DNA from: Ornithinimicrobium sediminis | GTDB taxonomy: Bacteria; Actinomycetota; Actinomycetes; Actinomycetales; Dermatophilaceae | Length of the DNA: 64,000 nt | Direction of reading: 5' to 3' | Assembly: GCF_021272345.1 (NCBI RefSeq) | Contig: NZ_JAJSDQ010000007.1 | Coordinates: 1-64,000 of the forward strand | Shown: positions 27,592 to 27,894 of the stretch, one piece after another | How the letters are laid out: every line of letters begins with the position of its first letter | Numbering within the stretch: position 1 is the stretch's first letter | Program-made: the position numbers and the translations under genes | Notes under the pieces: generated by a model | What the model was told of the DNA's origin: nothing | Databases searched by the model: none | The model's input: the letters and a program-made list of their open reading frames with translations, nothing else

Positions 27592-27894
27592 GTTGCCAGG
27601 GGTTTTGCCCCTCAGCCGCCCCGTTGCCAGGGCTTTCACACCCGCCCACCCCCGTTGCTAGGGGTTCTCCACCCGCGACGCCCCCGTTGCCAGGGGATCT
27701 CCACCCGGACCGGGACGCGTGCCCCGGCCTGTCGCAGGTGCAGACCGGCGTGGTGTTTCCCTCGCAACGCAGCACACCAGCGGGGATCTCCCTGGCAACA
27801 CGGGTGAGGATGCCGGGATCTCCCTGGCAACGCGGGTGAGGATGCCGGATCTCCCTGGCAACGCGGGAGGGGAAGCCGGGGTCTCCCTAGCAAC
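27592..27894. repeat. Nine-unit phased repeat array in two opposed blocks
   Basis: Block 1 holds four copies of GTTGCYAGGG at 27592, 27623, 27654 and 27686, spaced 31, 31 and 32 bp. Block 2 holds five copies of the reverse complement (CCCTNGCAAC) at 27759, 27790, 27822, 27853 and 27885, spaced 31, 32, 31 and 32 bp. Within block 2 the 20 or so bases between cores are also largely repeated (ATCTCCCTGGCAACGCGGG, GTGAGGATGCCGG). The core units are too short and the intervening sequence too similar for a CRISPR array. The array fills the gap between lacI and the original end of nagA. Confidence 0.9.

Follow-up and report, generated by a model that had tools for sequence, protein, structure and literature searches.

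Arrays of a polar motif spaced at 31 or 32 bp lie mostly at gene ends in the Ornithinimicrobium sediminis genome

The stretch of Ornithinimicrobium sediminis DNA analyzed here (64,000 nt; herein the window) contains a gap in which a gene for a LacI-family regulator (PF00356; positions 26500 through 27588, + strand) converges with one for a NagA-type amidohydrolase (PF01979; 27887 through 29058, − strand). Two arrays of a short core, GTTGCYAGGG, lie in this gap and face inward at a pitch of 31 or 32 bp. The + array (27589 through 27707) has four units with exact cores at 27592 through 27601, 27623 through 27632, and 27686 through 27695 (each GTTGCCAGGG) and, third in order, at 27654 through 27663 (GTTGCTAGGG); the stop codon of the regulator gene ends 3 nt ahead of the first. 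On the − strand, core 1 lies at 27885 through 27894 (GTTGCTAGGG), cores 2, 3, and 4 at 27853 through 27862, 27822 through 27831, and 27790 through 27799 (each GTTGCCAGGG), all exact, and core 5 at 27759 through 27768 (GTTGCGAGGG), with one mismatch. A preliminary description of this DNA had counted nine cores at alternating spacings; eight are exact and the ninth (27759) is imperfect, and the mix of 31 and 32 bp is borne out, with strict alternation in the − array (31, 32, 31, 32) but not in the + array (31, 31, 32). The exact core occurs eight times in the 64-kb window, where 100 shuffles average 0.18, and pairs of cores separated by N20-23 occur six times against none in 100 shuffles.

The amidohydrolase gene looks frameshifted near its 3′ end, as the main frame, which holds the domain (27911 through 29058), differs from the one that holds the likely C terminus (ORF 27887 through 28594, ending ATWVSGRRC). 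With the C terminus read by eye, the stop codon of the latter frame is the TAG at 27887 through 27889, inside core 1 of the − array. Between the arrays is a small inverted repeat read from the sequence, CCGGG-N8-CCCGG (27710 through 27727), which might conceivably form a hairpin; the 70 nt downstream of the window arrays have fold z-scores of +1.6 (+ strand) and −2.3 (− strand). Elsewhere in the window (30789 through 31045), 27- and 81-bp tandem repeats within a DEAD-box helicase-like ORF on the − strand encode a repetitive segment enriched in D, R, S, and Q.

The exact core occurs 74 times in the genome as a whole, whereas the reversed pattern occurs 8 times. A position profile built from 102 units in 28 arrays, using the stretches around cores, gives 111 matches at a score of 12 in the sampled DNA and none in reversed sequence. 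A sequence-only model (R1), run over the whole genome with E values up to 5, gives at least 120 matches, with 150 of 1555 first-look candidates scored; six further stretches, added after this search, bring the catalogue to 40 arrays in 26 gene gaps, each of 2 to 5 or so units. The sampled regions were picked for holding cores, genes were called with a home-made codon scorer, and the catalogue may miss arrays whose units have all drifted. Lone cores at five loci (L061, L062, L068, L070, and L077), which have no phased neighbor and lie within predicted genes, were taken as chance occurrences, and two low-scoring matches (C7:177619 and C12:79615; L152 and L154) yielded no array.

The unit has the consensus CGC-GTTGCYAGGG-AGWYTGCRCCCC, followed by a C-rich stretch, and comes in two types, with CC or GC at positions 16 and 17. 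Identity between arrays is 86% in the core and 54% at positions 11 through 18 (shuffled 25%), and stands at the shuffled level at positions 19 through 22 (53% vs. 52%) and in the spacer at positions 23 through 31 (37% vs. 36%); within arrays, spacer identity is 61%. Because the spacers are at shuffled likeness while the motif positions are alike, the arrays have a motif and a spacing in common rather than a whole unit; the likeness of the motif is partly by construction, since arrays were found via the motif, whereas the spacers were not selected.

The layout of the arrays and the constraint on their spacing are firm. With spacing not fixed beforehand, successive strong sites within 80 bp (n = 77) lie 32 bp apart in 46 cases, 31 bp in 30, and 30 bp in 1, so that 76 of 77 fall at 31 or 32 bp; neighboring units whose spacers are no more than 55% alike still do so in 59 of 60 cases. 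Chained spacings with 30 to 33 bp allowed (n = 95) are distributed in the same manner (56 at 32, 38 at 31, 1 at 30, and 0 at 33). Both values fit because three turns of B-DNA amount to 31.5 bp (3 × 10.5). Spacing is also tied to unit type (xCC: 21 at 31, 16 at 32, and 1 at 30; xGC: 11 at 31 and 39 at 32), and part of the regularity may therefore reflect units that inherit their length, not selection for helical phase. These values, together with the lack of an RNA-folding signal given below, lend indirect support to the cooperative array that the preliminary description had suggested, bound by a putative protein. That description had also held that freely varying spacing, or absence of such arrays from relatives, would reduce the locus to a local tandem duplication; the spacing does not vary freely. 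Plain local duplication without wider meaning would agree with the likeness of units within an array. It is scarcely credible in a genome where a single motif and a single spacing recur in 40 arrays, and we hold it refuted.

The arrays have a preferred position and direction. In 33 of 40 the upstream gene ends in sense with the array, and the first core of these lies −8 to +6 nt from the stop codon in 21, 13 to 36 nt in 11, and 67 nt in one; the − array of the window is a 34th sense case by eye. Six arrays are antisense to both neighbors (L063+, L075−, L076+, L080+, L150+, and L153+). Those of L063, L075, L076, L080, and L150 each face a sense array in the same gap, and that of L153 is opposed by a single degenerate sense unit ∼6 nt past the stop codon (by eye). 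Array-bearing gaps are convergent in 16 cases, codirectional in 10, and divergent in none, compared with 30, 149, and 47 for array-less gaps in the same DNA (Fisher test: convergent vs. codirectional, P = 4e-6; convergent vs. divergent, P = 3e-6; codirectional vs. divergent alone, not significant at P = 0.12). In this count the window gap is bounded wrongly, because the gene caller ran nagA through the array.

RNA folding against shuffles gives no signal for the 40 arrays (mean z of 0.07 sense and −0.20 antisense), and an RNA hairpin formed by each unit (GGG...CCC) was rejected on this ground. The 70 nt downstream of the arrays have a mean z of −0.32, and convergent gaps with a hairpin at z below −2 number 3 of 16 with arrays and 3 of 11 without, no clear difference; an array followed by a hairpin is thus not a general design. 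Hairpin-forming centers do exist (L079−, L151+, and L066+ by fold score). Separately, the innermost opposed units at L153 (3690 through 3735), L080 (4021 through 4068), and L073 (4045 through 4103) appear by eye as perfect or near-perfect hairpins. The arrays do not resemble intrinsic terminators (stable hairpin plus T run), being unfolded, with T runs judged by eye only. Among Rfam covariance models there was only one sub-threshold match (20.5 bits vs. a gathering score of 65.6). Mimicry of 16S rRNA was also considered, but no 16S rRNA gene was found in the assembly.

Two earlier suggestions can be read against these data. The blocks of the window had been proposed to pair as one long imperfect hairpin; their opposed arms (45 to 47 nt, 71 to 72% complementary) make such pairing possible on paper. 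The position of the arrays agrees with a role at gene ends, as expected of the strong convergent-gene terminator also proposed, but 10 of the 26 array gaps are codirectional and a hairpin is not general.

Sense orientation after a stop codon in 33 of 40 arrays would also suit an element of the 3′ untranslated RNA, either a C-rich, unstructured landing zone for Rho with pause sites or a series of sites for an RNA-binding protein. The arrays are unstructured, unit positions 19 through 31 are C-rich (59% C and 19% G, compared with 37% and 34% in 77 array-less 3′ regions), and motif positions 8 and 15 through 18 may resemble the bacterial elemental pause signature. Over the whole unit, however, composition (37% C, 31% G) is little different from that of the array-less 3′ control. 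Strict spacing at 31 or 32 nt is unexpected for flexible single-stranded RNA, and an element whose action is limited to the upstream gene's mRNA would leave the six antisense arrays unexplained, whereas a pair of inward-facing DNA arrays could. We consider an RNA element unlikely; the spacing rule and the six antisense arrays favor a protein bound to the duplex.

The family is restricted to this genome among those searched. Model R1 has no match in 30 congeners (E up to 0.05) or, under stricter filters, in 185 further genomes from the family (E up to 0.01). Phased pairs of exact cores occurred in only one of 37 other genomes in a first search of relatives, a congener (G006), and in none of 296 further genomes of the order; a looser core again found only G006 among the 30 congeners. 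There, three exact GTTGCCAGGG cores lie behind an inverted repeat, 83 nt past a gene end, at a spacing of 36 bp (L084, 5660 through 5741), which is not a whole number of helical turns. They were not accepted as the same family, as only the 10-mer is in common and R1 has no match there. At the locus of a NUDIX gene, the profile score is 29.0 here and nowhere above 4.9 in 29 congener loci; in one congener (G022) the same convergent pair encloses a gap of ∼70 bp without an array, compared with 287 bp here. The closest congener is ∼70% identical in the NUDIX protein. A conserved element of ∼90 nt is found near the NUDIX gene in 17 of the 29 congener loci (L156 through L184; e.g., L171, 2476 through 2566); it folds as a long hairpin (z = −4.6) and has no Rfam match.

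A scan that took a single genome for each of 84,980 species (own genome left out) found four stretches. Three belong to Clostridia OKU2; the fourth, from a Bacteroidales genome (UBA3810; L147), like one viral contig (L190), is a period-16 tandem repeat that happens to contain the core. A search of 72,556 plasmid and 50,697 phage records, sets that may leave out records near this genome, found no similar DNA. In the literature, the matches listed included no account of this layout, judged by title and the start of the abstract, and those listed for the core letters included no title on a bacterial repeat. The expanded intergenic repeat family envisaged in the preliminary description is thus present as 40 arrays in this genome but was not found in the 30 congeners or the 185 other family genomes. 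Failure to find similar phased arrays in those relatives is an outcome it had named as weakening.

Restriction to one species is what would be expected of an intergenic repeat like REP or BIME elements, multiplied in one lineage, tolerated at gene ends, and extended through tandem duplication in place; any effect on mRNA ends or supercoiling would be incidental. As described in PMC3733652, REPs lie between convergent and codirectional genes, not divergent ones, and carry GTAG or CGTC tags; PMC1525189 describes IS elements that target REPs. The arrays share with REPs and BIMEs as described there their shortness, many copies per genome, clustering, location at gene ends and in convergent gaps, and confinement to narrow lineages. 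They are placed like REPs downstream of coding regions, in 16 convergent, 10 codirectional, and 0 divergent gaps; their units are homogenized inside arrays (spacer identity of 61% within vs. 37% between); and a transposase gene with an integrase core lies between two of them at L081. REPs, however, are palindromic and tied to RAYT genes, and the arrays are neither: the consensus is non-palindromic, the arrays do not fold (mean z of 0.07), and a Y1_Tnp (RAYT) gene was found in none of 31 genus genomes searched, this one included, by a search that found it in 5 of 14 known genomes used as a control. The arrays also lack GTAG and CGTC tags and are direct tandem repeats at 31 or 32 bp where REPs and BIMEs form alternating pairs. 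Membership in a REP/RAYT system was rejected because no Y1_Tnp gene was found in the genus genomes searched. A merely tolerated repeat need neither keep its spacing while its spacers diverge nor place its first cores so close to stop codons. We regard a REP-like repeat that lacks its usual transposase as the main rival of the reading favored below, and as less likely than not.

The Clostridia OKU2 stretches belong to a REP family. In one such genome (G326), an 11-mer, GTTGCCAGGGA, that is also present in the arrays here has 75 copies against 1 in the control. Unlike the arrays here, its sites are mostly outward-facing pairs some 70 to 100 bp apart (e.g., L145 and L146), and the genome carries Y1_Tnp transposases, one of them between such sites. 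Kinship was rejected: only the core is in common, the layout is another, and the system is an ordinary REP/RAYT one.

A Pfam match was obtained for 37 of 40 array-flanking proteins scanned, among them aconitase, an iron-sulfur subunit, a lysine-type decarboxylase, ribosomal protein L9, cytochrome c oxidase subunit IV, a carboxyl transferase, MalQ, phosphorylase, PspA, and ABC transporter parts, with no functional theme seen beyond ordinary cell business. At L151 (3898 through 4707), a heliorhodopsin gene lies opposite the rplI array, and at L081 (14461 through 15102; C14, ∼78.5 kb) two opposed arrays flank a gene with integrase-core domains (rve, rve_3). The ends of Tn7- and Mu-like elements typically carry tandem sites that are polar and non-palindromic, and the units could be bound by a transposase or site-specific recombinase, or be remnants of an element of that kind, as the transposase gene at L081 might hint. 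An integrase-core domain is present in just 1 of the 40 proteins, though, most others being metabolic enzymes or transporters, and the plasmid and phage records hold nothing similar; we regard this origin as highly improbable. Plasmid iterons are likewise direct repeats on one helix face, with one protein per repeat. The arrays resemble them in repeating directly at whole helical turns (76 of 77 spacings), but iterons are spaced at about two turns, whereas the arrays have a three-turn spacing and are dispersed at the ends of metabolic genes. No replication initiator domain was found in the 40 proteins.

Another parallel in layout is offered by the Sal boxes of eukaryotic rDNA, tandem, non-palindromic, oriented sites downstream of the gene that are bound by TTF-I and act as polar road-block terminators. 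The arrays are likewise tandem, oriented, and downstream of genes, with 33 of 40 in sense; the TTF-I system belongs to another domain of life and to rDNA, whereas the arrays are spread over ordinary protein genes. We tentatively favor a phased, protein-binding block at gene ends. Each array would be a row of 2 to 5 polar sites (consensus about GTTGC-YA-GGG-R-K-W-Y-Y-S-C, roughly 18 bp) for a putative sequence-specific protein that binds double-stranded DNA, and a site-to-site distance of 31 or 32 bp, corresponding to three B-DNA turns, would place the bound molecules on one face of the helix. Starting mostly at or near a stop codon at the 3′ end of a gene and pointing away from it, or toward each other where two share a gap, rows occupied by the protein, perhaps cooperatively, may build a polar nucleoprotein block or insulator where transcription units end. 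Such a block would stop read-through by RNA polymerase as well as polymerases arriving from the opposite gene. Road-block termination is itself an established general idea (PMC10310618; PMC4132739), and a protein site between convergent genes is reported for CRP (PMC4892627).

An arrangement restricted to one species would need a protein, or a use of one, that is equally restricted. The wider proposal is in our judgment unlikely: a dedicated bacterial gene-end system on double-stranded DNA that arose and spread in one lineage and in which polar phased sites, mostly set at or close to stop codons of unrelated genes, would end or insulate transcription through a protein block rather than a hairpin, in the manner of TTF-I on rDNA. 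If the arrays have no function, they still constitute a REP-like family without a palindrome and without RAYT. If they bind a protein, they would provide some forty natural replicates of one regulatory design at unrelated gene ends, with a spacing rule that can be read from the sequence, show how a lineage can rapidly evolve a gene-end element other than a hairpin, and represent a portable, orientation-dependent insulator.
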